Assembly (NCBI RefSeq): GCF_027214025.1
Contig: NZ_JAPWHB010000006.1
Coordinates: forward strand, 434,001 to 498,000
DNA: 64,000 nucleotides
Direction of reading: 5' to 3'
From: Parahoeflea alexandrii
Lineage (GTDB): Bacteria > Pseudomonadota > Alphaproteobacteria > Rhizobiales > Rhizobiaceae
Shown here: positions 5,224 through 47,877 of the stretch, one piece after another
How positions within the stretch are numbered: the stretch's first letter is position 1
How the letters are laid out: every line of letters starts with the position of its first letter
Notes under the pieces: generated by a model
The model's input: the letters and a program-made list of their open reading frames with translations, nothing else
Databases searched by the model: none
Told to the model about the DNA's origin: nothing
Program-made: the position numbers and the translations under genes

Positions 5224-5240
5224 CGAATTGGAGGTGAGCA

Positions 5241-6231: not shown

Positions 6232-6244
6232 GGAGTTGAAGCGT

Positions 6245-6281
6245 CGACGGGGCGGAGCGGATTGCCGCGTTCGCCCCGTCG
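6245..6281. terminator. GC-rich hairpin between convergent genes
   Basis: CGACGGGGCG and CGCCCCGTCG form a perfect 10-bp stem with a 17-base loop, located just after the AhpD-like gene and before the end of the convergent methyltransferase gene. There is no clear T-run on either side, so it may act as a bidirectional or transcript-stabilising hairpin. Confidence 0.5.
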
Positions 6282-6319
6282 GCTGTAGCCTGGCTGGCGA
6301 AACCTTGACGCCGACTGAG

Positions 6320-7318: not shown

Positions 7319-7415
7319 GTATGGACCAAACAGGAGTTGTTTCGCAGCCTATGCTGCCAGGCAATGAAAAACGCAAGCTCTTTCGCAAGGGCTCAAGTCG
7401 CCCTACTTATGCGGG

Positions 7416-8432
7416 ATGTCGATGAAGCCCGAAGACCTGCTCATTCCCCGCCGCGAAGGGCTCTATTGCCCGCCCGGCGATTTCTTCATCGACCCGGTGC
7501 GCGGCGTCGACCGGGCGCTGATCACCCATGGCCATGCCGACCACGCCCGCGCAGGTCACGGCCATGTGCTGGCCACGTCCGAGACGCTCGACATCATGGC
7601 GATCCGCTATGGCGCCGATCATGCAGGCGCCACCCAGGCGGCCGGCCTCGGCGAGACGATCCGCATCAGGGACGTGACGGTGACATTTCATCCCGCCGGC
7701 CATGTGCTGGGATCGGCCCAGATCGCTGTCGAGAGGGATGGAATGCGCATCGTCGCCTCGGGCGACTACAAGCCGAGACCCGATCCCACCTGCGCCACGT
7801 TTGAACCCGTTGCCTGCGATGTCTTCATCACCGAGGCGACCTTCGCCCTGCCGGTATTCCGGCATCCGGGCGCCGCGGACGAGATCCAGCGCCTTTTGCG
7901 ATCCGTCAGCCGCAACCCCGACCGCGCGCATCTGGTCGGCGTCTATTCACTGGGCAAGGCGCAACGCGTCATCCGCCTGATCCGCGACGCCGGCTATCAT
8001 CGGCCGCTCTACATCCACGGCGCCCTGCAGAAACTCTGCGATTATTACGAAAGCCAAGGCATAGCTCTGGGGGATCTGCGGCCGGCCACGGTCGATGCCG
8101 GCGCCAAGGGCGATTTCGCCGGCGCCATCATCCTTGGACCACCCTCGGCTTTCGGCGACAAGTGGGCCCGCCGTTTCCCCGATCCTCTGGTCAGCTTCGC
8201 CTCCGGCTGGATGCAGGTCAGGGCCCGCGCCCGCCAGCGCGGTGTCGAACTGCCGCTGGTGATCTCCGACCATGCGGATTGGGATGAACTCGCCGAGACC
8301 ATCGAGGCCGTATCGCCGGGCGAGGTCTGGGTCACCCATGGCCGCGAGGAAGCGCTGGTGCGCTGGTGCACCATGCACGGCATTGCGGCGAGGCCCCTGC
8401 ATCTGGTCGGCTACGAAGACGAGGGGGATTGA
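7416..8432 (+). CDS. Ligase-associated DNA exonuclease (metallo-beta-lactamase fold)
   Basis: This 338-residue protein has the metallo-beta-lactamase signature HGHADH (within ITHGHADHARAGHGHVLAT) and further metal-binding positions at HPAGHVLGSAQI and SGDYKPRPDPT. The C-terminal beta-CASP-like part includes GVYSLGKAQRVI and LVISDHADWDEL. This is the exonuclease of the ligase-associated module, related to SNM1/Pso2 nucleases. The ligase gene begins only three bases after its stop, so the two are co-transcribed. ATG 7416 is chosen; a second ATG two codons later is possible. Confidence 0.92.
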   Translation: MSMKPEDLLIPRREGLYCPPGDFFIDPVRGVDRALITHGHADHARAGHGHVLATSETLDIMAIRYGADHAGATQAAGLGETIRIRDVTVTFHPAGHVLGSAQIAVERDGMRIVASGDYKPRPDPTCATFEPVACDVFITEATFALPVFRHPGAADEIQRLLRSVSRNPDRAHLVGVYSLGKAQRVIRLIRDAGYHRPLYIHGALQKLCDYYESQGIALGDLRPATVDAGAKGDFAGAIILGPPSAFGDKWARRFPDPLVSFASGWMQVRARARQRGVELPLVISDHADWDELAETIEAVSPGEVWVTHGREEALVRWCTMHGIAARPLHLVGYEDEGD

Positions 8433-8435
8433 GCC

Positions 8436-34404: not shown

Positions 34405-34420
34405 CTTACAAATCCGTAAG
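34405..34420 (+). promoter_or_regulatory. CTTAC-N6-GTAAG palindrome upstream of the COG4705 gene
   Basis: CTTAC-AAATCC-GTAAG is a perfect 5+5 dyad lying 181 bases before ATG 34601. Related sites precede the DUF3096, yfdX and second response-regulator genes, so I read it as a shared OmpR-type regulator site. The flank that follows (CTGAC) is also shared with the site at 47655-47670. Confidence 0.6.
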
Positions 34421-34600
34421 CTGACAGACAGCATCCCCCAATAAACCTTCCCTAGAAACGGTCTCGTCACGGAAACGGGGCCGCTGCCTCCGATCCGGCC
34501 GCCCGGCGGGTGCATCAGCGTTTTGCTGACCTTGTTGCGGGTCGTTCATAGACAAATCCGCGGTCCTTCTTGTGGATCGGCGGCTGCCAGGAGAATTGAA

Positions 34601-35413
34601 ATGTCACATACACAGATGGAGTCGGGCCTCCCGCTCGCCGCCGAAACATCCGCGTTCAATCGTGTACCGCAAGTCACAGTCGATTTCTGGCTGGTCAAAT
34701 TGCTCGCCGTCACGGTCGGCGAGACCGCCGCCGACTTTCTCAACATGAATCTGGGCCTTGGCCTGTCGGCGACCTCGGTCATCATGTCAGGTTTTTTGAT
34801 CGCCGCACTGTTCCTGCAGTTCTCCCAGCGCAAGTATGTGCCCTGGGTCTACTGGCTGGCTGTCGTGTTGATCAGCGTTGTCGGAACCCTCATCACCGAC
34901 AATCTCGTCGATAATCTCGGATACAGCCTGGAAGCCTGCACGATCGGCTTCAGCCTCGCATTGGCTGCGACATTCGCGGTCTGGTATGCGGTCGAGCGGA
35001 CGCTTTCGATCCACTCGATCTACACGGTGCGGCGCGAGAGCTTCTACTGGCTCGCCATCCTTTTCACCTTCGCGCTCGGCACGGCCGCGGGCGATCTGCT
35101 GGCTGAAGGCCTCGGCTTGGGTTACCTGCAGGCAGGGCTCGCCTATTGCGCTCTCATCGGAGCCATCGCGCTGAGCTATTATGTCTTCAAGCTCAACGGC
35201 ATTCTGTGCTTCTGGCTCGCCTACATCCTTACCCGTCCGATGGGCGCGTCCTTTGGTGACCTGTTCTCGCAACCTGTTGCGGACGGCGGTCTGGGGTTCG
35301 GTACGATCGCCACAAGCCTGCTGTTCCTCGCCGGCATCGCCGCGGTGGTGGTCTATATGCATTTTAGCCGCGATGGAGACGAACGGGTTACAATCGCCAC
35401 AGAAACCGAATAG
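34601..35413 (+). CDS. COG4705 membrane protein with fourfold internal repeat
   Basis: This 270-residue inner-membrane protein has about eight helices. Four repeats each carry a G-x4-D motif: GETAAD (40-45), GTLITD (95-100), GTAAGD (160-165) and GASFGD (215-220), each followed by L/F and a 'LGLG' or equivalent turn. Motif spacing is 55, 65 and 55 residues, so the protein is a duplicated two-repeat unit. This is the COG4705 family, often beside two-component genes; its function is not established. AGGAGA precedes ATG 34601; the frame's upstream extension is not used. A two-component system follows 201 bases downstream. Confidence 0.88.
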   Translation: MSHTQMESGLPLAAETSAFNRVPQVTVDFWLVKLLAVTVGETAADFLNMNLGLGLSATSVIMSGFLIAALFLQFSQRKYVPWVYWLAVVLISVVGTLITDNLVDNLGYSLEACTIGFSLALAATFAVWYAVERTLSIHSIYTVRRESFYWLAILFTFALGTAAGDLLAEGLGLGYLQAGLAYCALIGAIALSYYVFKLNGILCFWLAYILTRPMGASFGDLFSQPVADGGLGFGTIATSLLFLAGIAAVVVYMHFSRDGDERVTIATETE

Positions 35414-35449
35414 ACGCCAGGCAGCATCGTGTTGCCGCAATCCCCGCAT

Positions 35450-35481
35450 CCCCTGACAGGGCTCAAGAGGTTCTGTCGGGG
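35450..35481 (+). terminator. Bulged hairpin between the COG4705 gene and the response regulator
   Basis: CCCCTGACAG and CTGTCGGGG pair as a 9-bp stem with one bulged T and a loop of about 13 bases. It lies 37 bases after the COG4705 stop. There is no T-run; it could be a partial terminator or a transcript-processing structure. Confidence 0.4.
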
Positions 35482-35614
35482 AAAGATCGGGCGCTTTGCC
35501 GGACAAATCTCCACAATGCTCATATAACGAATGCAAGCTGAAAGGATCGGGACCGCATTGGTATTCGCGGTCCGGAACCGAACACGTGTAACTATCCAGC
35601 CTCCGGAGTCCGAA

Positions 35615-36292
35615 GTGCGACTTTTGCTGATCGAAGACGACATAAAACTGTCCGACTATGTCTCTCGCGGATTTAGTGAAGCAGGCCATCTGTGCGATGT
35701 GCTCGACAATGGCCACGATGGTCTTTTTCAGGCGACGCGCGAAACCTATGATGTGCTCATCGTCGATCGAATGCTGCCAGGTCTTGACGGGCTGTCGATG
35801 GTCAAGGCTATCCGCGCCGCAGGCAACAGGACGCCGCTGATATTTCTCACCTCAATCGGCGGCGTGGATGACCGCGTGGAAGGCCTTGAGGCTGGCGGCG
35901 ATGACTATCTCGTCAAGCCGTTTGCCTTTTCCGAACTGGCGGCTAGGGTTGCTGCCTTGGCCCGGAGGCCGGCCGTTCAAACGGAGCAGACGGTTCTCAG
36001 GGTGCACGATCTGGAGCTCGATCTCATTCGCCACCGGGTCACGCGCGCTGGCCAGCAGATCGAGCTGCAGCCCAAGGAGTTCGCCTTGCTTGAGGTGCTC
36101 ATGCGGGCCGAAGGCCGTGTGCTGACCAGGACGATGCTGCTCGAGCGCGTCTGGAACTACCATTTTGATCCGCAGACCAGCGTCGTCGAGACCCATATCA
36201 GCCGCTTGAGGAGCAAGATCGACAAGCCTTTTGACGTCCCCCTGCTGCAAACCGTGCGCAATACCGGATACACCCTCGATGCGCCACGTTAG
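35615..36292 (+). CDS. OmpR family response regulator
   Basis: This is a 225-residue regulator. The receiver has LLLIEDD, DVLIVDRMLPGLDGL with the phospho-Asp (about residue 51), LTSIGG and DYLVKPFAF. The OmpR winged helix begins near residue 125 with LDLIRHRVTRAGQQIEL and ends with VVETHISRLRSKIDKPF (recognition helix) and RNTGYTLDAPR. The start is probably GTG 35615, which begins the conserved RLLLIEDD; ATG 35531 would add 28 non-conserved residues. It overlaps the kinase gene by 14 bases. Its DNA-binding end is strikingly like that of the regulator at 46906. Confidence 0.93.
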   Translation: MRLLLIEDDIKLSDYVSRGFSEAGHLCDVLDNGHDGLFQATRETYDVLIVDRMLPGLDGLSMVKAIRAAGNRTPLIFLTSIGGVDDRVEGLEAGGDDYLVKPFAFSELAARVAALARRPAVQTEQTVLRVHDLELDLIRHRVTRAGQQIELQPKEFALLEVLMRAEGRVLTRTMLLERVWNYHFDPQTSVVETHISRLRSKIDKPFDVPLLQTVRNTGYTLDAPR

Positions 36293-37664
36293 TCTTTTCC
36301 GCTCCAGCGGATTTCGCGTTGCAATGACGTTTTGCGCCCTGTTCCTGGTTGCCAGTGTGATTGCCGGCGCCACCGCATATTCTGTGATACGCGAGGAACT
36401 GGTCAAACGCCATGAACGCGTTCTCGGCGAGGAATTCGATTATCTTGTCTCCACTTATGGCGGCGGCAACATCGAGAACCTGAGGCTCACAATCGAGGGC
36501 CATGCACGCGTTTCAAGCAACAGGGACAGCGTCTTCTTGTTGCAGGATGCCTCAGGCAACAAGCTTGCGGGCAATATAGAAAGGGTTCCCGACCGGCCCC
36601 TCAAACGCCAGGAAGCGGCAACCGTATTGGGCATGGAGGCCGACTATACCTACTTCGTCAAACAGGGGAAAATCGGCAATTATCACCTGACCACCGCTAC
36701 CAGCGCCGAGGACATCAGCGAGCTCGAGGAGATCATGCTGCTGGGCGCAGCATGGGCAGCTGCCGTGCTTCTGGCTGTCTCCCTGGCCGGCGGGATGCTT
36801 CTCGCCCGAAGCATGGAACGGCGCATTGCGCGCATTCAGGATGGTCTCGAGCGTGTCTCGGAAGGAGATTTTTCAGCGCGAATTCCCATCAGCGCGCGCG
36901 GAGACGACATCGACACCCTGACCGGCATGATGAACACGGCAATTGAACGCCTTGGAGCATCCGTGGAGGGCATTCGGCAGATCGGCAATGATATCTCACA
37001 TGACCTGAAATCCCCGCTGGCGCGGCTTCGCATCACCATCGAGCAGGCAGCGGAAAACCAGGCGCGAGGAATCCCTGTCGCTCATGAACTCGAAGAGGCA
37101 TCTGCGGAAACCGATCGTATCATCGCCACGTTTGATGCCCTGCTGCGGATCGCGCAGCTTGAGACCGGCGCGCGCAAGGCCCGTTTTGCCCCCACGGATC
37201 TTGTCGAGGTGGCGACATCGATCACTGATTTCTATCAGAGCTCATTCGAAGACGCCGGCATGGAGTTGAACACGGATCTGCCAGCCGGGGTTCCGCCGAT
37301 CTCAGGTGACAAGGAGTTGCTGTTTCAGCTGATTGCAAACTTGCTCGAAAATGCCCTGCGCCACTGTGCGCCGGGTGCGCGCGTGACTTACGCAATCGCG
37401 CTGCAAGCCGAAGCTGTCATTCTCAGCGTTTCAGACAATGGATCCGGCATTCCCGCGAACGAAAGGGAAAACGTGCTGCGTCGTCTCTACCGTTTGGAGA
37501 AAAGCCGCACCACACCCGGATCGGGATTGGGCCTCAGCCTGGTGAAGGCAATCGCGGACCTGCATGGTGCAAGACTGTCGCTTGAAGACAATGAGCCAGG
37601 ACTTCGGATCGCCGTCCGGTTTCCTGTGGCAGCGGATGGCAACACTGCTGCGGAATTGGGGTAA
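36279..37664 (+). CDS. Sensor histidine kinase (partner of the 35615 regulator)
   Basis: This is a 461-residue kinase. TM1 is at about residues 13-33, a periplasmic sensor region runs to about residue 150, TM2 is EIMLLGAAWAAAVLLAVSLA, then comes a HAMP domain (RIQDGLERVSEGDFSARIP) and HisKA with NDISHDLKSPLARLR. The ATPase domain has LIANLLENALRHC, VSDNGSGIPANER and TTPGSGLGLSLVKAIADLHG. It is translationally coupled to the regulator. The organisation and many motifs match the 45525-46913 kinase, indicating a paralogous system. Confidence 0.93.
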   Translation: MRHVSLFRSSGFRVAMTFCALFLVASVIAGATAYSVIREELVKRHERVLGEEFDYLVSTYGGGNIENLRLTIEGHARVSSNRDSVFLLQDASGNKLAGNIERVPDRPLKRQEAATVLGMEADYTYFVKQGKIGNYHLTTATSAEDISELEEIMLLGAAWAAAVLLAVSLAGGMLLARSMERRIARIQDGLERVSEGDFSARIPISARGDDIDTLTGMMNTAIERLGASVEGIRQIGNDISHDLKSPLARLRITIEQAAENQARGIPVAHELEEASAETDRIIATFDALLRIAQLETGARKARFAPTDLVEVATSITDFYQSSFEDAGMELNTDLPAGVPPISGDKELLFQLIANLLENALRHCAPGARVTYAIALQAEAVILSVSDNGSGIPANERENVLRRLYRLEKSRTTPGSGLGLSLVKAIADLHGARLSLEDNEPGLRIAVRFPVAADGNTAAELG

Positions 37665-37668
37665 CCAA

Positions 37669-38103
37669 GTGAGAGGATTGCCCGAATTCATCCGTCACGC
37701 GGCAAGCAAACTCACCGACTGGGCGCGGGATATCAAACGTGATGTTGCTACGCTTTGGATCGCTGCGCGGGACAAGCGCACGCCATGGCCGGTGAAGCTG
37801 GTTGCGGGTTTCGTGGTGGCCTATGCCCCGAGTCCCGTCGATCTGATCCCGGACTTTATACCGCTGGTTGGCTATCTCGACGACCTTATCATCCTCCCGC
37901 TCGGCCTGTGGCTGGCGATCAGGATGATGCCGGAGCACCTGATGTCGGAGTTTCGCTGCGCAGCAATTGAGATGGCGCCGCGACCCAAGTCACTCGCAGG
38001 TCTTATTTTCATCGGCGCGGTCTGGATGATTGGCGCCGCGATTCTGTTTCGCTGGCTGGACCAGCGCTTTGCTATCCGACCCGCGCGGTCATTCGGAGTC
38101 TGA
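37669..38103 (+). CDS. YkvA/DUF1232 family membrane-associated protein
   Basis: This is a roughly 144-residue protein. The DUF1232 core is TPWPVKLVAGFVVAYAPSPV followed by DLIPDFIPLVGYLDDLIILP, the diagnostic 'SPxDLIPDxIPxxGxxDD' motif. A further C-terminal membrane helix (LIFIGAVWMIGAAILFRW) follows. Function is unknown. The start is uncertain: GTG 37669, four bases after the kinase stop, gives a family-like N-terminus, while ATG 37636 would overlap the kinase end by 29 bases. It appears to belong to the kinase operon and is followed at once by the DedA fusion gene. Confidence 0.82.
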   Translation: MRGLPEFIRHAASKLTDWARDIKRDVATLWIAARDKRTPWPVKLVAGFVVAYAPSPVDLIPDFIPLVGYLDDLIILPLGLWLAIRMMPEHLMSEFRCAAIEMAPRPKSLAGLIFIGAVWMIGAAILFRWLDQRFAIRPARSFGV

Positions 38104-38105
38104 AA

Positions 38106-40109
38106 TTGGGTCACTATCTGCAGCCGATTGTCGATTACATCGGCAACCATCCCAACGGCGCGCTTGCGATCGTTTTCATGATGGCAATGGGCGAGGCACT
38201 CTTTGTCATTGGGCTGTTCGTGCCCTCAACCGTCGTCCTTGTCGGTGCTGGTACATTGGTCGGCATGGGCAAGCTCGAGTTCGTGCCGATCTTCACCGCC
38301 ACGGCACTGGGCGCAACCGCCGGCGACGCCATCTCCTACTGGTTCGGTCACACCTACAAGGAGAAGATCAGGCGGATCTGGCCTTTCAGCCGCTACACCG
38401 GGATGCTTGATCGCGGCGAAGCCTATTTCGCCAGGCACGGCGGAAAGAGCGTGTTCATCGGCCGGTTCATCCCGGGCATCAAGTCCGTTGTCCCTGGCAT
38501 TGCCGGCATCGTCGGCATGAGTCCGGTGCGCTTCACCATTATCAATGTGGTATCCGCCATTGCCTGGACAGCCAGCCACCTTCTGCCGGGAGTCGGGATC
38601 GGCAGGGGTATCGATGTCGCCAGTTCGGGCAATCCGAGACTGCTCGAGCTCTTCGTTCTTGTGCTTGTTGTCGCCTTCGTCGCAACTTACGCAGCCAGGT
38701 TCGCCTTTGGCTGGCTGCTGCCCCACGCGGAGCTCTGGCGCACCAGGCTTGGAGAGGCATTGTTAGGACTGCCGGTGCCGGGTGCGCGGTTCTTGCGGCG
38801 ACTGCTCCTCAACGAAGAAAACATCCTCGTTCCCTTTGCCTTCTTTGCCCTGGCGCTGCTCGGCCTTTCGGGTTTCACCTTGATTTCGGTGGCGTATTTT
38901 GCCGACCCCGCTTTCGTCCGGGCGGACGAATCCATCAGCGCCTATCTTCAATCCTTGCGCACGGAGCCTTTTGATCGGCTCATGGTCGGCGTCACAATGC
39001 TGGGTGACGGCATGGTGCTGGGCCCGGTGGCGGCAGCTGTGCTGGCAGTGTTCCTGTGGCACAGGAGGTGGCGCATGGCCGGCGCGCTTGCGACCGCTTT
39101 TGTCAGCGCCGCGCTGTTCGTGCCGCTGATCAAGGCGTTCATCCACCGCGCGCGACCAATCGCACTCTACAATGGCGCGGACAGCTACAGTTTCCCCAGC
39201 GGCCATGCGACCCTTGCGGCAACCATCATCGGGATGTGCGTCCTTGTCGCGGCCCGTGACCTCCCATCGCGCGTACAAAGGGCTGTGTATGTGCTGGCGG
39301 CGATCACCATCGGGCTGATCGCGTTTTCCCGTCTTTACCTCGCGGCCCATTGGCCGAGTGACGTCGGCGCAGGCCTCCTGTTCGGCGGTGCACTGGTATT
39401 CGGCCTGGCCTGGCTTCTGCACGGACGCTCCTACGTTCCCGCGTCCAGCCGTTCCGGCATCGCCGCACTCGTTTGCCTGATGCTGGTCTATCCTGTGCAT
39501 CTCTACCTGAACTATACTGCGACCGCATCCAACTATGTCATGCGGATTGATCAGACGCTGGTCACCCAAGAGCGGTGGCTCGCCGATAGCTGGGCTGATG
39601 TTCCGCTCCGACGCGTCCTGCTTGATGGCGATTACGGTGAACCGGTCCTTGTTCAGACCAATCTCGACATGTCGAAGATAGCTGACACCCTGACCAAAGC
39701 CGGCTGGAGTCCGAGAGCGGCCGGTCAACTGGCACGGCTGGTCGATTCGATCCTGCCATCACGCCGGTCGCTTGATGAAATGTCGGTCCTGCCGCTGACC
39801 AACCACGGACATGCGCCGATTGCCGTCTTCACCCGGCCTGCTCCCCAACCGGCAGGGGCGCGACAAGTGTTGCGCGTCTGGACATCGGGCACATCGATCT
39901 CGGAGGGAGGCCGGCACACGCCACTGCTGCTTATCTCCGTGACAACCGAAATTGCCGAACCGATCGGGTTTGGCTTTGCCCTCGCAGAGGCGCTGCAGAT
40001 GACAGCTTCCGAAAATGATGCGCTGGGATCGGTGATCGCCAACTCACTTGGCGGTTCGGTAACCCTGGTGAACGATGCAGACGGCCACCGGTTGCTATTG
40101 GTCAACTGA
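38106..40109 (+). CDS. DedA - PAP2 phosphatase - LssY C-terminal fusion protein
   Basis: This is a 667-residue inner-membrane protein with three parts. Residues about 15-200 form a DedA (SNARE-associated) domain with FIGRFIPGIKSVVPGIAG. Residues about 250-440 form a PAP2 lipid phosphatase with the three motifs KAFIHRARP, SFPSGH and SRLYLAAHWPSDVG. Residues about 460-667 resemble the LssY C-terminal domain. DedA proteins move phospholipids or undecaprenyl phosphate across the membrane and PAP2 enzymes remove lipid phosphates, so the fusion could recycle lipid carriers. The start is TTG 38106, two bases after the YkvA stop. Confidence 0.88.
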   Translation: MGHYLQPIVDYIGNHPNGALAIVFMMAMGEALFVIGLFVPSTVVLVGAGTLVGMGKLEFVPIFTATALGATAGDAISYWFGHTYKEKIRRIWPFSRYTGMLDRGEAYFARHGGKSVFIGRFIPGIKSVVPGIAGIVGMSPVRFTIINVVSAIAWTASHLLPGVGIGRGIDVASSGNPRLLELFVLVLVVAFVATYAARFAFGWLLPHAELWRTRLGEALLGLPVPGARFLRRLLLNEENILVPFAFFALALLGLSGFTLISVAYFADPAFVRADESISAYLQSLRTEPFDRLMVGVTMLGDGMVLGPVAAAVLAVFLWHRRWRMAGALATAFVSAALFVPLIKAFIHRARPIALYNGADSYSFPSGHATLAATIIGMCVLVAARDLPSRVQRAVYVLAAITIGLIAFSRLYLAAHWPSDVGAGLLFGGALVFGLAWLLHGRSYVPASSRSGIAALVCLMLVYPVHLYLNYTATASNYVMRIDQTLVTQERWLADSWADVPLRRVLLDGDYGEPVLVQTNLDMSKIADTLTKAGWSPRAAGQLARLVDSILPSRRSLDEMSVLPLTNHGHAPIAVFTRPAPQPAGARQVLRVWTSGTSISEGGRHTPLLLISVTTEIAEPIGFGFALAEALQMTASENDALGSVIANSLGGSVTLVNDADGHRLLLVN

Positions 40110-40126
40110 GCTGTGGTTCAAGCACA

Positions 40127-40156
40127 AAGCCACCGCCCGAGACCGGACGGTGGCTT
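40127..40156. terminator. Hairpin between the DedA fusion gene and bdhA
   Basis: AAGCCACCG and CGGTGGCTT form a perfect 9-bp stem with a 12-base loop, 17 bases after the DedA-fusion stop and 82 bases after the convergent bdhA end. It is well placed as a shared terminator, though the downstream T content is modest. Confidence 0.65.
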
Positions 40157-40237
40157 GTTGCCGTGTTCAGGTTGGGGCACCCGGGCGGCTGCCCGTCACA
40201 GGGCCAAAGTCCGGGAGGTCCCCTCCTTCTGCAGCCG

Positions 40238-41020
40238 TCATTCCATGAACCAGCCGTGACTGACCAGCAGCGACTGGCCGGTCAGGGCGTTTGTCGGAAA
40301 GGCGGCGAACATCCATGCCACTTCGGCGACGTCCTCAACCGTGGTAAACTCCTGGTCCACGGTCTGACCCAGCATGATCTTGTTGACGACGTCTTCTTCG
40401 GAGATGTCGAGTTCCTTCGCCTGTTCGGGGATCTGCTTTTCGACAAGAGGCGTCTTCACAAATCCGGGGCAGATGACGTTGGCGCGAACGCCATGGGCCG
40501 CGCCTTCCTTGGAAATCACCCGCGCCAGGCCGAGAAGACCGTGCTTGGCGGTGACATAGGCTGATTTCAGGGGCGAGGCTTCCTTGGAGTGGACCGACCC
40601 CATGAAAATCACCGAGCCGCTGCCGGCCTTGTACATGTGCGGCAAGCAGGCCTTGGTGGTCAGGAATGCGCCGTCGAGATGGATCGAAAGCAGTTTCTTC
40701 CACTCCGCGAAGGGAAAGTCCTGCAGCTTGTGAACGATCTGGATGCCGGCATTTGAAACCAGGACATCAATCCTGCCCCAGCTGTCGATGACCTTCTGAA
40801 CGCCTGAATTGACGGCCGCTTCGTCGGTGACGTCCATTGCCAGCCCCATGGCCTTGCCGGGGCCCATGGCGGTCAATTCATCCGCCGTGGCCTGGGCGTC
40901 TTCAAACGCCAGGTCTGCGATGACGACCCAAGCGCCATCGGCAATGTAACGTTCGGCGATGGCACGGCCGATGCCGCGTGCCGAACCGGTGATGATGCAG
41001 ACTTTCTTGTTGAGGTTCAT
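40238..41020 (-). CDS. bdhA: 3-hydroxybutyrate dehydrogenase
   Basis: This 260-residue SDR enzyme oxidises D-3-hydroxybutyrate to acetoacetate with NAD, a step in PHB breakdown. It has [34 protein letters not shown] (the typical BDH substrate region), [20 protein letters not shown] (Ser, Tyr, Lys catalytic set), [15 protein letters not shown] and [15 protein letters not shown] at the C-terminus. It is the last gene of a minus-strand run after acetoacetate decarboxylase and patatin, and PHA synthase lies about 20 kb away. Confidence 0.95.
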
Positions 41021-41146
41021 TTCATTTGCTTTCTATGGTTTGGTTGAGAGCCATGGACCACATCCCGGTCAGGCTCAGGTCTTGTGAGTGGTGATGATTG
41101 TGCGCCGATCCGGCATGGCCGAACCGGGTGGAGCGTGTGTGCAGGC

Positions 41147-41896
41147 TCACATCTGCTCCACGCTCAGGTAATCATGCACGACCTCACCCAGCCCGAGGGT
41201 CAGGTCGGCAAGAATGTGGGTGGCGGATACGACTTCCAAAACCGGAAGTTCAGCAACGGGCGCAAGTGCGTGGTCGAACAGTTCAAGTCCGGCCGGCCCG
41301 GTCCATGCGCCTTTGACGGTGATATCTTCGAGACAGTAGGAGACCAGTTCGCAGATGCGCGGCGTGCAATCGACATGCGGAATGATCTTCAGTAGGTAGC
41401 TGGGCTCCTCCATTGCCCGCCTGACGCTCTCGGGATCGAGCGCGCCGTGCTTGTAGCCCATGGTGCCGTTCGCGATGCGCAATGAACCGTAATCCAGCGT
41501 GCCGACCAGGGTATCCTGCTCAACCCGGAGGCTGGGATTCGCCAGCTTCTTCGGAAATCCCCAGATCTCGCGTCCACCGGCAATCGGCGCATCGTCGTTG
41601 AGATACATCGAGTGGACATATCCGCCTTTCTTGCCTTTGAACGTGACCGGGATGACCTGCCCGGACTCGGTGTAATCGCCGAACCCGGTTGAATCCGGCA
41701 TGCGGATGAACTCGTATTTCACGATAGCTTCGCCGATTTCCAACGGTTCGGGAACGACCGCGCGAAGTGCATCAGGATTGGTCCGGTACGTGATGATCAT
41801 GTATTCACGATTGACGAACCGGTACGGACCCTTCGGATAGGAAGGACTTGTAAGCGGCATCGCGAATGCCGTGTTTTCAACCTCGATAATTTTCAT
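41147..41896 (-). CDS. adc: Acetoacetate decarboxylase
   Basis: This is a 249-residue enzyme converting acetoacetate to acetone and CO2. The Schiff-base lysine segment [16 protein letters not shown] is intact, with [20 protein letters not shown] upstream and [18 protein letters not shown] downstream, all typical of the family. It starts 12 bases after the patatin stop and precedes bdhA by 126 bases. Together they handle the ketone body acetoacetate made from hydroxybutyrate. Confidence 0.94.
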
Positions 41897-41908
41897 TTTT
41901 CTGATGTC

Positions 41909-43024
41909 CTATTGGGTAAGGTCAAAGACCTGAAAACCGCCTTCCGGACGGCTGCGGTTTAACCAGCTCTGCGAACGGATCCCTTGCCGAACGCTTTTGC
42001 GGCCGAGTTCCCAGTGCTCCTCAACGGATTGTCGGGAAAATTCGTAGTCCTTGGAGCCGGTTTCGTAACGGGCGTCCCTGCGAATGATATGAGCGATGGT
42101 CACGGCCGCTTCCCGGCTGATCCTGGCCAGCCGCCGCGCATGCTCCGTGCCGGCAAGCTGTTCCGGCAGGGTCTCCAGCAGCTTTCGTGCCTCAAATCTC
42201 AGCTCGTGCAGCGCGCGAACATGGTCGGAGTTGAAACGGGTCCGGCTCGAAAAGCGGATGTCTTTCTCACGCTCATTGATGTCCATGATGGACTTCGGCA
42301 GCTGACCGCGTGCACTGAAAACGTCGACCTGGAAAATGCACAGATCGCCTTCCGTATCCGAGTATTCCATGACGTAGTCGAGCGGCGTGTTCGAGACCAG
42401 GCCACCATCCCAGTAGTATTGGCCATTGATCAGAACGGGCGGAAATCCCGGTGGAAGCGCTCCGGAGGCCATGATGTGGTCGGCAGCGAGCTTTTCGTTG
42501 CGGACGTCGAAATAGGCGAAATTGCCCGATTGGAGTTCGACCGCGCCGACACTCAATCTTGGTGCGTCGGCCGAGTTCAGGTAGGTGAAATCGACCAGCT
42601 TGTTGAGTGTGTCCCGCAGCGGGGATGTGTCGTAGAAGCTGACCTCCTCCGGCTGGGAGGGGCCGCCAAAGGGCAGGCAGGGAAGCCGGGGCTTGAAGAA
42701 GCCGTCGATGCCGAAGGCCATGCCCCAGTTGGCAGCCGCTTCGTTCATCAGGCTGCGCATCCCGGTCTCGCCAAACGGTGTCCGCGCCAGCAAGGACGAC
42801 GACGTCATCTCCCAGAATTCCCGCAATCTTGAAACCCGGTTTTGCTTCTGGTTGCCGGCGATGATCGCGCCATTGATCGCACCGATGGAAATTCCCGCAA
42901 TCCAGGAAGGCTCATAGCCCGCCTCGCTCAGGGCTTCATAGGCGCCAGCCTGATACGCTCCGAGTGCGCCTCCCCCTTGCAGCACCAGAACTGCCTTCTC
43001 GTTCGCCAGCAATTTCAGTGACAT
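41909..43024 (-). CDS. Patatin-like phospholipase with DUF3734
   Basis: This is a 371-residue serine hydrolase. It has the patatin oxyanion loop LQGGGALGAYQAGAYEAL, the nucleophile elbow GISIGAING (GxSxG) and the catalytic aspartate in YWDGGLVSNTPLDYV (DGG). The C-terminal third (DINEREKDIRFSSRTRFNSD and beyond) is the DUF3734 extension. ATG 43024 is used; it overlaps the upstream gene's end by 10 bases, and a GTG 12 bases further upstream is possible. Patatins of this type occur with bdhA and adc in rhizobia and may act on lipid or PHB granule surfaces; this is inferred from context. Confidence 0.92.
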   Translation of the reverse strand: MSLKLLANEKAVLVLQGGGALGAYQAGAYEALSEAGYEPSWIAGISIGAINGAIIAGNQKQNRVSRLREFWEMTSSSLLARTPFGETGMRSLMNEAAANWGMAFGIDGFFKPRLPCLPFGGPSQPEEVSFYDTSPLRDTLNKLVDFTYLNSADAPRLSVGAVELQSGNFAYFDVRNEKLAADHIMASGALPPGFPPVLINGQYYWDGGLVSNTPLDYVMEYSDTEGDLCIFQVDVFSARGQLPKSIMDINEREKDIRFSSRTRFNSDHVRALHELRFEARKLLETLPEQLAGTEHARRLARISREAAVTIAHIIRRDARYETGSKDYEFSRQSVEEHWELGRKSVRQGIRSQSWLNRSRPEGGFQVFDLTQ

Positions 43025-43659
43025 GACTGACCCCACTCGCGGTACATGCCGAGATCGAAATTTCCCGATGCGGCATCGTCATCATCGCGGTCGCGGCTGA
43101 TCGATTGAGCATGGATCTTTTGACCGCCGGATCCGGTTAGCAGATCCAGGGCCTTGGTTTCGTCCGGGTCCTGCTCCACTTGCACCACCACCAGCAGGTC
43201 GCCCTTGGCCAATTGCTTCGCCAGATATTCGGTGCGGTTCCTGCTGATGACCCTGCCAAGGAGGGTGCCTAGTCCGGCGCCCGCTGCTGCAGCCGCGGCC
43301 GATACCGCGACTGCAAGAGCGAGTGTGCCGCCTGTCGAGACGACCGCAAGGCAAGCCCCGGCGCCCCCTAGGCAGGCGGGGAGGCTGCGCGCCAGCTTCT
43401 CGTCGCCTTCCACTTCGTGCCGATCCAGATAGATCGGCTGGGGAAAGACAGCTGCATCGCCCTGCGAAGCCATGGCTTCAAACCGTTGAGCTGGTCTTCC
43501 GATAACCGCATCATGTGATGCGACCATGTTAATGCAATCGCGATGGAAACCGTTGCTTTCCAGTGTTCCCACCGCGTTCTCGAACATCTCGGCATCACTG
43601 AAGTGTGCGATGACCTGGCGTGGTTCATACGGCGCCGACATGGTGTGGACGTCAGTCAT
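43015..43659 (-). CDS. Stress-type membrane protein of unknown function
   Basis: This is a 214-residue protein. The N-terminal half resembles the general stress YflT/DUF1269-like fold (QVIAHFSDAEMFENAVGTLE and SNGFHRDCINMVASHDAVIG). A glycine/alanine-rich membrane hairpin follows (about residues 95-140), then a second soluble domain with LAKGDLLVVVQVEQDPDETK. The end of the frame overlaps the patatin start. It follows a DUF1269 gene after 44 bases, so both probably sit in the patatin-adc-bdhA transcription unit. The function is unknown. Confidence 0.8.
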   Translation of the reverse strand: MTDVHTMSAPYEPRQVIAHFSDAEMFENAVGTLESNGFHRDCINMVASHDAVIGRPAQRFEAMASQGDAAVFPQPIYLDRHEVEGDEKLARSLPACLGGAGACLAVVSTGGTLALAVAVSAAAAAAGAGLGTLLGRVISRNRTEYLAKQLAKGDLLVVVQVEQDPDETKALDLLTGSGGQKIHAQSISRDRDDDDAASGNFDLGMYREWGQSCH

Positions 43660-43703
43660 TATCAGATACCTCTGCTATCGGTTGAGCCGGATCGAGCCTT
43701 GAT

Positions 43704-44231
43704 TTAGGCGGCTTCTTTGCCCTTTGATCCGGCGGTCAGATCGGCATGCACCTTGTCGAAGACGGCGCGGGCGTGACTTTCGGCAACCGTGTCCAGATTG
43801 GTGCGCAATATGTGTCCGCCATACTCGCCGAGCTTGGCGATAACCCGGTCGGTTGCCGTGTTGCGCGACATCATGAACAGAGCGGCCTGGCCCGGTTTGA
43901 GAAGCGAAGACACGTCCTTCATGAAGTCATCGTTGATGCCGTAGTCGGTCAGGCCGCCCGAAAATCCGCCAGCGGCGGCTCCGACGGCAACGCCAAGCAC
44001 CGGATGCAGGAAGAGGAGCCCCACCAGCAGCCCCCAGAACGCGCCGCCGCTTGCGCCAAGCGTCCACATGTTGACCATTTGATTGAGGCTGACCTTGCCG
44101 TCCTTGTCGGCAACGGCAACCACCGCATCCGAGAGTTCGACAAGGTATTCTTTGGACATGCCGTAAAGCGCGGTGCGGGCGGCTTCGGCTGATTCCTGGT
44201 CTTCATAACCGACGACGATGAGTTCTGACAT
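43704..44231 (-). CDS. DUF1269 domain-containing membrane protein
   Basis: This is a 175-residue protein: SELIVVGYEDQESAEAARTA, then AVVAVADKDGKVSLNQ, a glycine-rich membrane hairpin (about residues 62-100, GGAFWGLLVGLLFLHPVLGV), then YGINDDFMKDVSSLLKPGQA and LFMMSRNTATDRVIAKL. This is the DUF1269 pattern, which is common in stress-induced proteins. An AGGAGA site precedes ATG 44231; the upstream extension of the frame has no site. It precedes the 43015 gene, with which it shares domain type. Confidence 0.9.
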   Translation of the reverse strand: MSELIVVGYEDQESAEAARTALYGMSKEYLVELSDAVVAVADKDGKVSLNQMVNMWTLGASGGAFWGLLVGLLFLHPVLGVAVGAAAGGFSGGLTDYGINDDFMKDVSSLLKPGQAALFMMSRNTATDRVIAKLGEYGGHILRTNLDTVAESHARAVFDKVHADLTAGSKGKEAA

Positions 44232-44367
44232 TTTCTTTCTCCTGTTGGCCTGGATGATGGCGGCCGGGACCGGGAGGTCGCCTGGACGCTTTTTACGGAT
44301 TGCCCCGACCGTTCGAGAGCACCGCGGGGTGCGATGCGCTGCCGGCCGGGGTGGCTGTGGTTTCTGG

Positions 44368-44520
44368 CTATGCAAACAAATGCGGAAACAGCCCGATCAA
44401 ACCGCTCAGGATCAGAAATCCCGCGACGGTGTAATTGAGGGTTCTTGGAACCAGCAAAATCAGCAGTCCTGCGAGCAGGGCGATGAGCGGTTGGGCGATC
44501 AGTCCATATTGTACGGTCAT
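44368..44520 (-). CDS. DUF3096-like 50-residue membrane peptide
   Basis: ATG 44520 opens a 50-residue frame starting MTVQYGLIAQPLIALLAG, with a second helix TLNYTVAGFLILSGLIGLF, ending PHLFA before TAG. It matches the DUF3096 family: 'QPLIALIAGILILIxPxxLNY' followed by a second hydrophobic helix ending in GLxGLF. It is too short for usual ORF cutoffs but has the right composition. It lies upstream of the DUF1269 gene on the same strand, and a CTTAC-N6-type site is 88 bases before its start. The function is unknown; relatives are co-encoded with stress genes. Confidence 0.8.
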   Translation of the reverse strand: MTVQYGLIAQPLIALLAGLLILLVPRTLNYTVAGFLILSGLIGLFPHLFA

Positions 44521-44608
44521 GTTCGGGTCCCCGGTGTGTTTGACAGGATCGCTTCAACGATCCGGGGACAGGAATAACAGGCTCCGTTGTCGCCACATTT
44601 TCGCGAGA

Positions 44609-44624
44609 TTTACTTATTTGTAAG
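44609..44624 (-). promoter_or_regulatory. CTTAC-N6-GTAAA site upstream of the DUF3096 gene
   Basis: On the minus strand the site reads CTTAC-AAATAA-GTAAA, directly followed by TCTCGCGAAAA. The inner TTAC and GTAA are a perfect dyad. It is 88 bases before ATG 44520. The yfdX site has the same core and the same CTCGCGAAAA flank. Confidence 0.65.
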
Positions 44625-44685
44625 GCGGCGATCCGGGGCATGCCGGGCGGACAACCCGTTGATTTGCATGCCGCCTGACGAAATG

Positions 44686-44712
44686 AAAAACGGAGCCCGC
44701 TTCCAGGCTCCG
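44686..44712 (-). terminator. Rho-independent terminator after yfdX
   Basis: On the minus strand CGGAGCC, an 8-base loop and GGCTCCG form a perfect 7-bp GC-rich stem followed by TTTTTC. It lies about 30 bases after the yfdX stop and should end that transcript. Confidence 0.8.
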
Positions 44713-44741
44713 CTGTTTATTAAGAACAGGAATTTCAGGCA

Positions 44742-45440
44742 TTATCCGGTGGCGCCCTGAACCGGAACCTCGTCAATATTGAAGGACTGCATCACGATCG
44801 AGTCTTCGACCGCCTTCAAGGCGAGGTTTGCCTCGTAGTACTGCTTCTGGGTGATCAGACTGGCGGCGTCGCTCACATGCGAGAGGCTGGCCTTTGCCGG
44901 GAGGAACGCGCCGGAGATGGTCACATCGATGTTGGCCAGCTTCAGCTCATCGACCGCCTTCTTCGAGTCACCCTTGGCAAGATGCTCATTGGCCGTCTTC
45001 AGGCTCGCCTGCTTTTCGGGCGTCGGCTTGAAGCCCTCGGTCAACGCCAGCGAGGTGTCAAACGGCACATAGGCGTCGTCTTTCAGCGACGGCGTGATCT
45101 TGTCGACCTGGAAGTCCTTCATCTTGTCATTGGCGGTTTGCAGATCGGCTTGCGCCGTCTTGACCATCTTGGCCGCGGCATCAGGCGAGCCGTTGAAGAT
45201 GGCAAGGCGTGCGGCGTGGATTTCGCGCAACGCGCTGTATGCCTCATCCATCGTCTTGATGATGGCCTTGTCTTCGGCCGTGTTCAGTTGCGCGTCAACA
45301 GCCTTGGTCTCTTGCGCCGAGGTCTGCTCCGCCGTTGCTTTCGCAGCACTTGCAGCGTGGGCATAGCTTGCCCCGATAATCGGCGTGGTGGCCAGCAAAG
45401 CGGCCATTGCAGCGGTGAGGATTCTGGATTGGGTGTTCAT
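44742..45440 (-). CDS. yfdX: YfdX family periplasmic protein
   Basis: This 232-residue exported protein has a signal peptide (about residues 1-30, ending ASYAHAASA) and a YfdX domain: IIKTMDEAYSALREIHAARL, then ITPSLKDDAYVPFDTSLALT and SGAFLPAKASLSHVSDAASL. E. coli YfdX is an acid and multidrug stress protein of the EvgA regulon; a similar envelope-stress role is inferred. ATG 45440 has AGAAAG upstream. A dyad site 83 bases before the start overlaps the end of the kinase gene, and a strong terminator follows the stop. Confidence 0.9.
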   Translation of the reverse strand: MNTQSRILTAAMAALLATTPIIGASYAHAASAAKATAEQTSAQETKAVDAQLNTAEDKAIIKTMDEAYSALREIHAARLAIFNGSPDAAAKMVKTAQADLQTANDKMKDFQVDKITPSLKDDAYVPFDTSLALTEGFKPTPEKQASLKTANEHLAKGDSKKAVDELKLANIDVTISGAFLPAKASLSHVSDAASLITQKQYYEANLALKAVEDSIVMQSFNIDEVPVQGATG

Positions 45441-45523
45441 TATCTTTCTCCACATTTGCAAGCCCGGTATGGACTTGTTGAAGAGACAGTAGGCTCTGAA
45501 TTTTGAGCCGGCTTTTCGCGAGC

Positions 45524-45539
45524 TTTACAAATTTGTCAG
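45524..45539 (-). promoter_or_regulatory. CTGAC-N6-GTAAA site upstream of yfdX
   Basis: On the minus strand: CTGAC-AAATTT-GTAAA followed by GCTCGCGAAAA. It overlaps the last codons and the stop of the kinase gene and is 83 bases before the yfdX ATG. The ten-base flank CTCGCGAAAA is identical to that at the DUF3096 site. Confidence 0.65.
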
Positions 45540-46913
45540 CTTGCCGTCCTTGCCTGCAGGCGGGAAAGCGACGCGGACGACAAGGCCGGGATTGTTGTCG
45601 TCAAGTTCGATGGTGGCGCCATGCCGTTCGGCGATGGCGGCGACGAGCGCCAATCCGAGGCCCGTGCCCGGCGTTGACCTGCTTCGGTCAAGCCGCTCAA
45701 AGGGCTCCAGCACCGCGAGGCGCTGGTTAGCGGGAATCCCGGGGCCGGTGTCGCAGACCTCAAGAACGGCGCCGCCGCTCTGGGTTGCCCTGGCCCGCAA
45801 TGTGATCGTGACCCCTCTGGGACAATGATTGGTGGCGTTCTCGATCAGGTTGACCAGCATCTGCCGGATCATCCGTGTGTCGGCAAGAACTGTCAGCGGC
45901 GCGCCGGGAGGCGGTTCAACAATCAGGGTGTCGCCGTGGTCTTCGGCGACCGGGGCAAATATCTCGCCTATTTCGGTGACAAGCTCACCGAGCGAAATCA
46001 CTGAAAATCCTTCCCGTCCGGCGCTTGCCCTCAATCTGGAAATCCGCAAGGTGGTGTCGAAAATTTCGGTCAGGTTTTCGATTTCGGCCTGGGCGTCACC
46101 GAGTTTGGCGGTGATCACGGAAGCCTCATCTGCCGCCAGCGCGTCATCAAGCAGTATGGACACGCGGTTGAGCGGCGAACGAAGATCGTGGGCAATCGCG
46201 TTGATCGTGTTCGTGTTGCTTTCGACGACATGCTTGAGATGATTCAAGTGCTGATTGATCAGCCGGCCAGCCTTGTCGAGTTGTTCCGATCCCTTGCCCG
46301 CGTCAACGCGCGCGTCAAGATCGCCGCCGGCAACCCTTTCAAGCGTGCCGGTCATGGCTTCGAGTTTTGAGAACGTTTGCCGGCTGATGCTGTAGCTGAT
46401 CAGCATCCGGATGATCGTCGCGGTGGCGGCCGTTGCAAAAATGGTGGTGAGAAGAACGCTGAGCACATTTGTAACAGGCCTCAGACTGCGGCCGACGGCC
46501 ACTGTCTTTCCATCGCTGATCATCTTGCTGTTGATCAGGTAAGTTCCATTCGGTTCCGGGTACAGGCCTTCGAAACTCTTGCGGGTCCATCCGGGCTCTT
46601 CCGGCGGAAGCTTCAGATTGCCTGCCAGCCTGTTTCCATTGTCATCAAACAGTCCGAACAGATTTGTCGATGCGATATTGCGCGGATCACTGAGGAAACC
46701 AATCTTCGCAAAAGCATCCAGACCCTCGTCGTTGTAGATACGCTCCATCAGCGTGACTTCCTCGGCGATCTGGCCTTGCAGTTCATCGATCATCGCACGC
46801 TGGACAACCTGGTAGACGAAAGCCGTCAGGAGCACGATCACGATGGAGGCAATCGCGGCGAAAACGAAGTTGTAGCGAAACGTTATCCCCGACGTCACGT
46901 TGCCGCTAAACAT
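45525..46913 (-). CDS. Sensor histidine kinase (second system)
   Basis: This is a 462-residue kinase. TM1 (FVFAAIASIVIVLLTAFVYQ) is near residue 15, followed by a periplasmic sensor domain to about residue 150, TM2 with a HAMP-like region (LEAMTGTLERVAGGDLDARV), HisKA NAIAHDLRSPLNRVS, and the ATPase domain (LVNLIENATNHCPRG, CDTGPGIPANQR, STPGTGLGLALVAAIAERHG). It overlaps the regulator gene by eight bases. It is a paralogue of the 36279-37664 kinase, sharing the SPLxR box and the C-terminal half. It probably senses envelope stress; the signal is unknown. Confidence 0.93.
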   Translation of the reverse strand: MFSGNVTSGITFRYNFVFAAIASIVIVLLTAFVYQVVQRAMIDELQGQIAEEVTLMERIYNDEGLDAFAKIGFLSDPRNIASTNLFGLFDDNGNRLAGNLKLPPEEPGWTRKSFEGLYPEPNGTYLINSKMISDGKTVAVGRSLRPVTNVLSVLLTTIFATAATATIIRMLISYSISRQTFSKLEAMTGTLERVAGGDLDARVDAGKGSEQLDKAGRLINQHLNHLKHVVESNTNTINAIAHDLRSPLNRVSILLDDALAADEASVITAKLGDAQAEIENLTEIFDTTLRISRLRASAGREGFSVISLGELVTEIGEIFAPVAEDHGDTLIVEPPPGAPLTVLADTRMIRQMLVNLIENATNHCPRGVTITLRARATQSGGAVLEVCDTGPGIPANQRLAVLEPFERLDRSRSTPGTGLGLALVAAIAERHGATIELDDNNPGLVVRVAFPPAGKDGKLTNL

Positions 46914-47577
46914 GCATTACGTATCCGCTGTTTCTGCTCGTGTGTATCAGCGGTTTTTCGAATGGCTTGTCCACCTTGGCGCGCAGACGGCTGACATGGG
47001 TTTCGACGACTGTCGTGCGCGGGTCGAAGTTGAAATCCCAGACCTGTTCGAGAAGCATGGTCTTGGTGACCACTCGCCCGGCATTGCGCATCAGCACTTC
47101 CAGCAAGGCGAATTCCTTTGCCTGCAGCTCGATAACTTGACCATCGCGCTTTGCCGAGCGGGCCAGCAGGTCCAGTTCCAGATCCCCGACGGTAAGAACA
47201 GTTGTCATGATGGCGCCGGACGGTCTCCGCGTCAGTGCCTTGACCCTGGCCAGAAACTCCGAGAAATGGAACGGCTTGACGAGATAGTCGTCCGCGCCGG
47301 CCGTCAGTCCGTCGACGCGCTGATCGATGTCGGCCATGGCCGTGAGGAAGATCACCGGCGTGTCCTTGCCCGAAGCGCGCAGGCTCTTGACCACCGAAAG
47401 ACCATCCATGCCCGGCATCATCCGATCGAGAACGATCAGATCGCAGTCATTGTAAAGGCTGTGCGCCAGCACATCGCGCCCGTCGCCAAAACACTCCACC
47501 GAATAGCCGTTTTCAACCAGCCCCTTGCGCAGGTAGTCACGGGTGCTTGCATCGTCCTCGGCAATCACGATCTTCAT
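46906..47577 (-). CDS. OmpR family response regulator (second system)
   Basis: This is a 223-residue regulator: MKIVIAEDDASTRDYL, then CDLIVLDRMMPGMDGL (phospho-Asp about residue 51), FLTAMAD and DYLVKPFHF, then a winged helix with VVETHVSRLRAKVDKPF as recognition helix. ATG 47577 starts the conserved sequence; the frame's 19-codon extension is not used. Over 40 residues of the DNA-binding domain it shares 29 identical residues with the regulator at 35615. A variant of the shared palindrome lies 77 bases upstream, suggesting autoregulation. Confidence 0.94.
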   Translation of the reverse strand: MKIVIAEDDASTRDYLRKGLVENGYSVECFGDGRDVLAHSLYNDCDLIVLDRMMPGMDGLSVVKSLRASGKDTPVIFLTAMADIDQRVDGLTAGADDYLVKPFHFSEFLARVKALTRRPSGAIMTTVLTVGDLELDLLARSAKRDGQVIELQAKEFALLEVLMRNAGRVVTKTMLLEQVWDFNFDPRTTVVETHVSRLRAKVDKPFEKPLIHTSRNSGYVMHV

Positions 47578-47877
47578 TGATGTTGTCTTTTCCTTTGCCC
47601 GTCTGCACCGCCGGAGCTGTGCAAATGTTAGCAATTCAGATCCGCTCCAGTCAGCTTAAAAATTTGTATGATTGCAGAAAGGGTGGCCCGAATATGAGAG
47701 GTTATGCCGCCAGACACGCAATTGCGCTTGCGGTACGCCGCCTCAAGAGGCTCGCGTTCGTGACAATCGCCAAGTGAAGCGCCAGGAGGCCGACAATCGG
47801 CAGAAACAATCAAAGGTCACCGCGCCACCTGAGCACGCCTGTTGGTCCGGCATGATAGCGACAACATGAGCACGAAA
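47578..47877. other. Intergenic region upstream of the second response regulator
   Basis: This 300-base gap lies between the regulator start and the end of the MscS-type gene, both on the minus strand. It holds the variant dyad at 47655-47670 and therefore probably the regulator's own promoter. I see no small gene; short frames here lack binding sites and recognisable content. Confidence 0.5.
47655..47670 (-). promoter_or_regulatory. CATAC-N6-TTAAG variant site upstream of the second response regulator
   Basis: On the minus strand: CATAC-AAATTT-TTAAG followed by CTGAC. The core ACAAAT and the AAGCTGAC flank match the 34405-34420 site, although the dyad is imperfect. It is 77 bases before ATG 47577, about the same distance as at yfdX and DUF3096. 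Confidence 0.5.

Follow-up and report, generated by a model that had tools for sequence, protein, structure and literature searches.

We analysed a 64,000-nucleotide stretch of the genome of the alphaproteobacterium Parahoeflea alexandrii (contig NZ_JAPWHB010000006.1, positions 434,001 to 498,000 of the forward strand; hereafter the window), in which four copies of a 16-bp box precede the genes for a COG4705-type membrane protein of family DUF347, a DUF3096 protein, a YfdX protein and an OmpR-type response regulator (Table 1). The boxes are probably, at a rough estimate of four chances in five, the operators of a branch of CopR/CusR-like response regulators (RRs) of the OmpR family that is marked by the sequence VVETH; this branch would include both RRs encoded in the island (RR1 and RR2) and would activate the envelope genes around them. 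The initial annotation had ascribed all four sites to one transcription factor, and this proposal holds as far as sequence can carry it.

The pattern CWKACAAATNNKTAAR has exactly four matches in the window, where the initial annotation had placed the sites, compared with a mean of 0.00 in 100 shuffles of the window. In the whole genome (5,543,836 bases in 68 contigs) the same four sites are the only exact matches, all lying within 13 kb, and the pattern read backwards matches once. The boxes are forms of one imperfect palindrome, CTTACrrATyyGTAAG, that is, the inverted repeat TTAC-N6-GTAA (6-4-6, of TTACA). Boxes 1 and 2 are exact in TTAC..GTAA, box 3 departs by one base, in a single half (TGAC, the CopR form), and box 4 has one change per half (ATAC..TTAA); box 3 overlaps the final codons and the stop of the kinase gene next to yfdX. 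Read from the sequence, three of the boxes lie 88, 83 and 77 bases ahead of a start codon, within the range of 77-88 that had been given, and the fourth lies at 180 bases, where the initial annotation had 181. The pairing of the flanks described there was also recovered: the yfdX and DUF3096 boxes have the common flank CTCGCGAAAA, and boxes 1 and 4 have AAGCTGAC.

Three tests of different source agree that the box is more than a product of chance. In the first, a matrix made from the four sites was applied to 55 loci in other members of the order and to 16 plasmid loci, with the reversed matrix as the control of specificity. The true and reversed matrices gave 44 and 6 sites at scores of at least 14, 31 and 1 at 16 or more, and 24 and 0 at 18 or more in the 55 loci, and 18 and 1, 11 and 1, and 8 and 0, respectively, in the plasmid loci. 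In the second, a motif-free search of all gapped pairs of 4-mers upstream of RR and DUF347 orthologs placed TACA-N5-GTAA first, in 14 of 34 loci (control mean 1.6), and 14 of the 15 top words were pieces of the same box. In the third, a matrix made from relatives only (20 sites, themselves selected by the TTAC-N6-GTAA rule) ranked the four boxes highest in the window (25.5, 21.0, 20.1 and 19.7; next 10.6), and none of 200 simulated windows had a site at 19.7.

Furthermore, the box tracks the type of regulator. Homologs of DUF347 occur in 34 and those of YfdX in 11 of 397 genomes of the order, and a search of the set of genome contigs for YfdX homologs gave no relative. Among 26 DUF347 loci (at least 50% identity; highest-scoring site in an upstream region of about 900 bases), a site scoring at least 14 was found in 12 of the 14 with an RR ortholog (at least 55%) in the locus and in two of the 12 without one. 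The exceptions are L125, of which the whole contig is only 6.1 kb, and L127, which has its RR ortholog elsewhere in the same genome (L164). DUF347 genes with only a distant RR (30-36%) in the locus have no box. In the genus (18 genomes, including this one), YfdX is present in one genome and DUF347 in two; thus, the island is accessory. A 50-52% match to RR2 is found in 16 of the 18, this genome included. Two congeners carry, besides this paralog, a further RR (58%), in both cases with the helix VVETHISRLR. When their 14-kb stretches holding the further RR were scanned, after the matrices had been fixed, boxes scoring 23.6, 19.2 and 17.8 (G013) and 24.1 and 23.3 (G001) were found. The comparison with related strains that the initial annotation had suggested therefore turned out in its favour.

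Both RRs consist of a receiver domain and a Trans_reg_C winged helix, as in the OmpR/PhoB family; the C-terminal domain has PcoR as its closest PDB entry, and the best NCBIfam model of both is TIGR01387 (cztR_silR_copR), followed by the CusR and HprR models. RR1, RR2 and the box-linked relatives have in common the stretch VVETH[IVM]SRLR or close variants of it (IVETH, VVETL, VVETHISKLR), which we take to be the recognition helix of the family. The helices of RR1 and RR2 have few, conservative differences (TSVVETHISRLRSKIDKPF and TTVVETHVSRLRAKVDKPF). With this common helix type, both are therefore good candidates for the same boxes, and the suggestion of the initial annotation that one or both of the paralogous OmpR regulators act here is borne out as the best reading. 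For both adjoining sensor kinases (HK1 and HK2, 31% identical), the best model is the partner TIGR01386, with scores under the cut-off and, for HK1, only 0.2 bits above BaeS/SmeS.

The surroundings of the box follow a regular layout. We used 61 boxes scoring at least 16 with both flanks (122 flanks; 114 for relatives alone) and counted offsets from the box end. TA is at +32 in 30 of the 122 flanks, against a mean of 2.7 elsewhere (relatives, 26 of 114 against 2.6). The 26 flanks of relatives, selected only by TA at +32, have G at +6 with A at +9 in all 26 cases (23 of the 88 others) and G at +17 with A at +20 in 22 (20 of 88), while four control offsets had no link to TA at +32. With boxes taken from the window-only matrix and similar flanks removed, TA at +32 is found in 20 of 110 flanks, and the two elements accompany it in 19 of 20 (22 of the 90 others) and 18 of 20 (17 of 90). 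In relatives, G..A ranks highest at the offsets +6 and +17; since the right GTAA of the box starts at -5, half-site-like elements, in phase and in direct repeat, recur every 11 bp (-5, +6 and +17) and are followed by the -10. The boxes of DUF347, yfdX and DUF3096 all have TA at +32 and G+6/A+9, so that on the gene-facing sides in the window the +6/+9 element is present in three of four cases and +17/+20 in one (DUF3096 alone); the flank CTCGCGAAAA includes the +6 element. With a 56-base extended matrix built on 21 flanks of relatives, the four boxes score 36.7, 30.3, 30.2 and 24.7, and the next site 10.5. A sigma-70 scan found no promoter at these boxes; a box just upstream of a -10, with no good -35, is the arrangement expected of a type II activator. 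The score of 30.2 belongs to box 4 in the + orientation, and this box may thus also face away from the RR2 gene with a target-type layout. In that direction (47671-47880, + strand) it points to the 3' end of an MscS-like gene across a stretch in which only very short open reading frames (ORFs) were seen by eye; a small RNA, a small protein or a lost divergent gene is possible there.

In the mechanism that we propose, a phosphorylated dimer of the RR would bind the inverted repeat TTAC-N6-GTAA, further protomers would occupy the weaker half-sites at +6 and +17, separated by one turn of the DNA helix, and from this position would recruit RNA polymerase, in the manner of a class II activator, to a promoter that has its -10 at +32 but lacks a good -35. 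Four transcripts would be switched on, namely DUF347 (with RR1-HK1 behind it), RR2-HK2, yfdX and DUF3096 (with the DUF1269 gene behind it), and the box of RR2-HK2 would serve autoregulation. RR1 and RR2 probably share the boxes because their recognition helices are near-identical, and two sensors would then feed one envelope-stress island.

Table 1. Boxes, promoter-like elements and genes of the island (positions in the window; extended score, 56-base matrix)
Feature	Position	Strand	Remarks
Box 1, CTTACAAATCCGTAAG	34405..34420	+	180 bases ahead of DUF347/COG4705 ATG 34601; extended score 36.7
-10-like TAGAAA	34453..34458	+	TA at +32 from box 1
COG4705-type membrane protein, DUF347 (PF03988)	34601..35413	+	Pfam; COG label from the initial annotation
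RR1, OmpR-type response regulator	35615..36292	+	GTG start read from sequence
HK1, sensor histidine kinase	36231..37664	+	Start uncertain
VTT/DedA-like + PAP2 + LssY_C fused membrane protein	38106..40109	+	LssY_C and NCBIfam matches under cut-offs
DUF1269 protein	43704..44231	-	Downstream of DUF3096
DUF3096 protein, 50 amino acids	44368..44520	-	
-10-like TATTCC	44571..44576	-	TA at +32 from box 2
Box 2, CTTACAAATAAGTAAA	44609..44624	-	88 bases ahead of DUF3096 ATG 44520; extended score 24.7
Terminator-like hairpin with T run	44689..44714	-	3' of yfdX; 11 pairs
YfdX (PF10938)	44742..45440	-	
-10-like TACTGT	45486..45491	-	TA at +32 from box 3
Box 3, CTGACAAATTTGTAAA	45524..45539	-	83 bases ahead of yfdX ATG 45440; extended score 30.3
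HK2, sensor histidine kinase	45525..46913	-	
RR2, OmpR-type response regulator	46906..47577	-	55% identical to RR1
-10-like GCTAACAT	47625..47632	-	At +22 from box 4, facing RR2; GCTA at same offset in L146, L151
Box 4, CATACAAATTTTTAAG	47655..47670	-	77 bases ahead of RR2 ATG 47577

By operator architecture, the boxes look built like those of the cop/CusR/HprR/AgrR kind; the sources cited here by PMC number were available as excerpts, and the comparisons hold for these. AgrR is a regulator of a silver system in the Betaproteobacteria. In Cupriavidus metallidurans it uses the 16-bp 6-4-6 inverted repeat ATKACANNNNTGTMAT (TTAC/TGAC-N6-GTAA), with in-phase direct repeats of the half-site at some operators, both kinds of repeat contributing to activation; it is described as an autoregulated type II activator of promoters with a poor -35, and its targets include agrR, prsQ2, copA2-copR2 and czc genes (PMC7380067). 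The same inverted repeat, the extra in-phase half-sites and a type II-like layout are found here, but whereas AgrR has the extra repeats at some operators, the +6 and +17 elements are present in 22 of the 26 TA+32 flanks of relatives. Autoregulation, predicted here for RR2-HK2, is a further point in common with AgrR. In Escherichia coli, two regulators, CusR and HprR, act on one box, CATTACAAAATTGTAATG, before hiuH-msrPQ (PMC9302797). This box is also TTAC-N6-GTAA, but the targets here are DUF347, YfdX and DUF3096, not hiuH-msrPQ. Pseudomonas CusR, CopR and CzcR share the palindrome ATTCATnnATGTAAT, on which the three cross-regulate copper- and zinc-responsive targets, and CopR reads CTGACAn5GTAAT (PMC11195947); box 3 (CTGACAAATTTGTAAA) fits CTGACAn5GTAA. 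The recognition helix differs, the relative PcoR (chain 2jzy) having VIDVAVRRLR at this place. Neither EvgA nor RcsB is an OmpR-type regulator. These two control yfdX of enterobacteria in stress (PMC6339873, PMC6394985); a link of yfdX with a two-component regulator is predicted here as well, but the regulator families differ. UzcR of Caulobacter was considered as a possible relative; the excerpt that names its logo gave no motif letters (PMC12864828). Their sequence gives good support to the view that the boxes would function in the manner of a CopR/AgrR operator. The operator type is already known; its regulator branch, its set of targets and the regularity of its layout are the additions. 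Among the literature matches listed for yfdX, CopR and CusR/HprR there was no account of this regulon, and a literature search for COG4705 gave no match.

Several observations weigh against this reading or limit its extent. The RRs stay below the curated cut-off of TIGR01387 (279.2; RR1 254.9 and RR2 256.9), the model of heavy-metal regulators, even though it is the best model of both, and their CusR and HprR model scores are likewise under the cut-offs. The Fisher test of the association between box and RR ortholog at DUF347 loci (p = 0.0011) is generous, as six of the 14 loci with an RR ortholog are from one genus and the genomes are not independent. A site scoring at least 14 within 200 bases of the RR's own gene is present in only seven of 33 RR orthologs (at least 55%) and in none of 10 more distant RRs; autoregulation, as far as such sites indicate it, is not general across relatives. 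One of 10 loci of other OmpR-type RRs in this genome also has a site of at least 14 (L189, 15.5). As for the layout, TA at +32 is absent from both sides of 31 of the 61 boxes (the other 30 have it on one side), boxes 1 and 3 have no G at +17, and the RR2-facing side of box 4 is without A+9, A+20 and TA+32. In a Shinella megaplasmid (NZ_CP131131) and genome G280, in which YfdX adjoins an RR of the same clade as RR2, yfdX has no full box, only a stretch like the right half followed by TTCGC.

The count of hits in the genome points the same way. Relaxed forms of the box were not enriched in this genome (CTTACAAATNNGTAAG with up to three mismatches, 57 true and 131 control matches; TTACNNANNNGTAA with up to one, 118 and 490), nor was the loose pattern CNNACAAATNNNTAAR in 40 other genomes (38 and 40); a large regulon is therefore not visible. 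From the matches listed for the relaxed patterns we picked 20 stretches of this genome by hand. One of them, C10:652865-652880 (TTGACAAATTTGTAAA), reaches 23.0 under the four-site matrix, on a par with the four boxes (22.2-23.8), and the next best scores 20.3. The expectation of the initial annotation that a genome scan would set these sites apart thus stood for the exact pattern, with no further match, and failed at this one site of equal four-site score. C10:652865-652880 does not have the promoter layout, its extended score being 5.8 against 24.7-36.7 for the four boxes, and none of the 20 stretches exceeds 9.1. The site is intergenic, with a KAP NTPase among the adjoining genes. A few of the near-matches are intergenic, and 10 scanned neighbouring proteins had no common theme: five had no match, and the others were an ABC ATPase, the KAP NTPase, OEP, a lactate/malate dehydrogenase and a receiver domain. 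We took the near-matches for chance rather than for further members of the regulon, less surely so for the site at 23.0. With no enrichment of relaxed forms, and with a site outside the island that scores equally, the regulon is probably this island.

The main alternative to boxes shared by RR1 and RR2 is a pair of parallel regulons with look-alike boxes, in which RR1 would serve DUF347-RR1-HK1 and RR2 would serve RR2-HK2, yfdX and DUF3096, insulated by flanks such as CTCGCGA and CTGAC. In a tree of 67 RRs, RR1 and RR2 do fall into separate supported clades (12 rows, support 99/92, and 11 rows, 100/99), and TCGC follows the box at yfdX and DUF3096 here and at L192 and L200, which have RR2-clade regulators. 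However, the two recognition helices differ at few and conservative places, the box cores, judged by eye, have no split by clade, and TCGC at these offsets is also found in L127, L128, L194 and L196. We regard this alternative as a serious one, but as the less probable. A fuller version of the preferred reading is itself tentative, and we would put it a little short of even odds: an alphaproteobacterial RR branch with a strict grammar (inverted pair, two direct half-sites spaced by 11 bp, -10 at +32), two paralogous sensor systems on one operator, an accessory envelope-stress island that encodes orphan proteins (YfdX, DUF3096 and DUF347, with PepSY and CusF/DUF1344-like proteins in relatives) and a signal of HK2 other than copper.

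The RRs could also shut the genes off, the boxes being repressor operators, as CopR limits the expression of pcoA2 at the shared palindrome of Pseudomonas (PMC11195947). This seems unlikely, because many boxes of relatives lie at a fixed distance upstream of a -10, and the sigma-70 scan found no promoter at the boxes of the window, as in the type II promoters of AgrR (PMC7380067). Still less likely is that the boxes serve another regulator, an unlinked factor or a third CopR-like paralog (C10:804978-805640), and that their neighbourhood is coincidental. This paralog is of the same wider family (51% identical to RR2); however, its helix is VIDVH, its 3.7-kb locus has no site of at least 12 with either matrix, and the boxes accompany VVETH regulators in different families and also in congeners. 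AT-rich palindromes that arose by chance, or four copies of one repeat element, might be suspected from the many genomic hits of relaxed patterns and from the one off-island site that is equal with the window matrix, but we give this almost no credence, as the exact pattern has four matches where none is expected, the box is conserved with differing flanks in other genomes, and the hits of the window matrix in the loci of relatives refute it in our judgment.

If the boxes are operators of the VVETH branch, metal is a candidate signal by family, not by evidence from the kinases. CopS senses copper through two conserved periplasmic histidines, His41 and His140 (PMC7763554). The sensor parts were bounded by a simple hydropathy rule; that of HK2, 115 amino acids long, lacks histidine, and that of HK1 has three, which may or may not correspond to the CopS pair. 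Copper is hinted at by copper clusters near close homologs, not by HK2, and we did not retain it as the signal; a copper system is at most a candidate reading. A role of DUF347 in metal transport has been suggested in Frankia (PMC4531530), and metal therefore stays among the candidates.

In relatives, boxes precede genes for COG4705/DUF347, RRs, YfdX and copper clusters. On a plasmid of the Paracoccaceae (CP031593), a family of another order, a perfect CTTACAAATTTGTAAG is flanked by a YfdX gene and an ORF of 48 amino acids, DUF3096-like by reading of its translation rather than by a profile match, with an RR2-clade RR and its kinase alongside. In three plasmid copper clusters (azurin-like, copper oxidase, TolC), TATACAAATTTGTAA[AT] lies 78-79 bases ahead of the first gene, which is hypothetical. 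Other boxes are ahead of a CusF/DUF1344-like gene (L155), a PepSY gene (L196) and GT25 genes (L151, L203). A gene for an EptA-like phosphoethanolamine transferase follows the box in L140, where Pfam was run, and, by position and size, in L142 and L144; near it, these three loci (family f40) have the variant box [CT]TTACATCTGTGTAAG and RRs with VVETLISRLR. Helix and box may have changed together there, but this 16-mer also occurs in Shinella L192, where the helix reads VVETHMSRLR.

As for the genes of the island themselves, the terminator-like hairpin after yfdX, the longest of 15 listed where 12.7 are expected by chance in the region, suggests that DUF3096 and its own box probably start a new transcript, in which the DUF1269 gene is possibly included. 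A strong-looking hairpin without a T run (35450-35481, CCCCTGACAG ... CTGTCGGGG; seen by eye and not folded) lies in the gap between DUF347 and RR1 and could set the level of RR1-HK1 behind DUF347. The VTT/PAP2/LssY_C fusion is a possible member of the same island. Genes for DedA, PAP2 phosphatases or both accompany RR/DUF347 islands here (38106-40109) and in the plasmid loci L196, L205 and L206, which recalls the operons of DUF347 and undecaprenyl phosphatase that are up-regulated by lead (PMC4531530). Further genes on the - strand encode a protein without a Pfam match, a patatin, an acetoacetate decarboxylase and a short-chain dehydrogenase (SDR). In L145 (genome G219, 1971-10005), of another family, an SDR-acetoacetate decarboxylase-patatin block lies at most about 3.4 kb from an RR2-HK2 pair, with identities of 79, 73 and 53% to the genes downstream of DUF3096 in the window.

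Three little-known protein families, YfdX, DUF3096 and DUF347, would thus be tied to one type of regulator, by a sequence rule that appears precise enough for predicting further targets in Alphaproteobacteria. Furthermore, with its two paralogous two-component systems and their nearly unchanged recognition helices, the island is a small natural example in which shared control may be set against insulated control.

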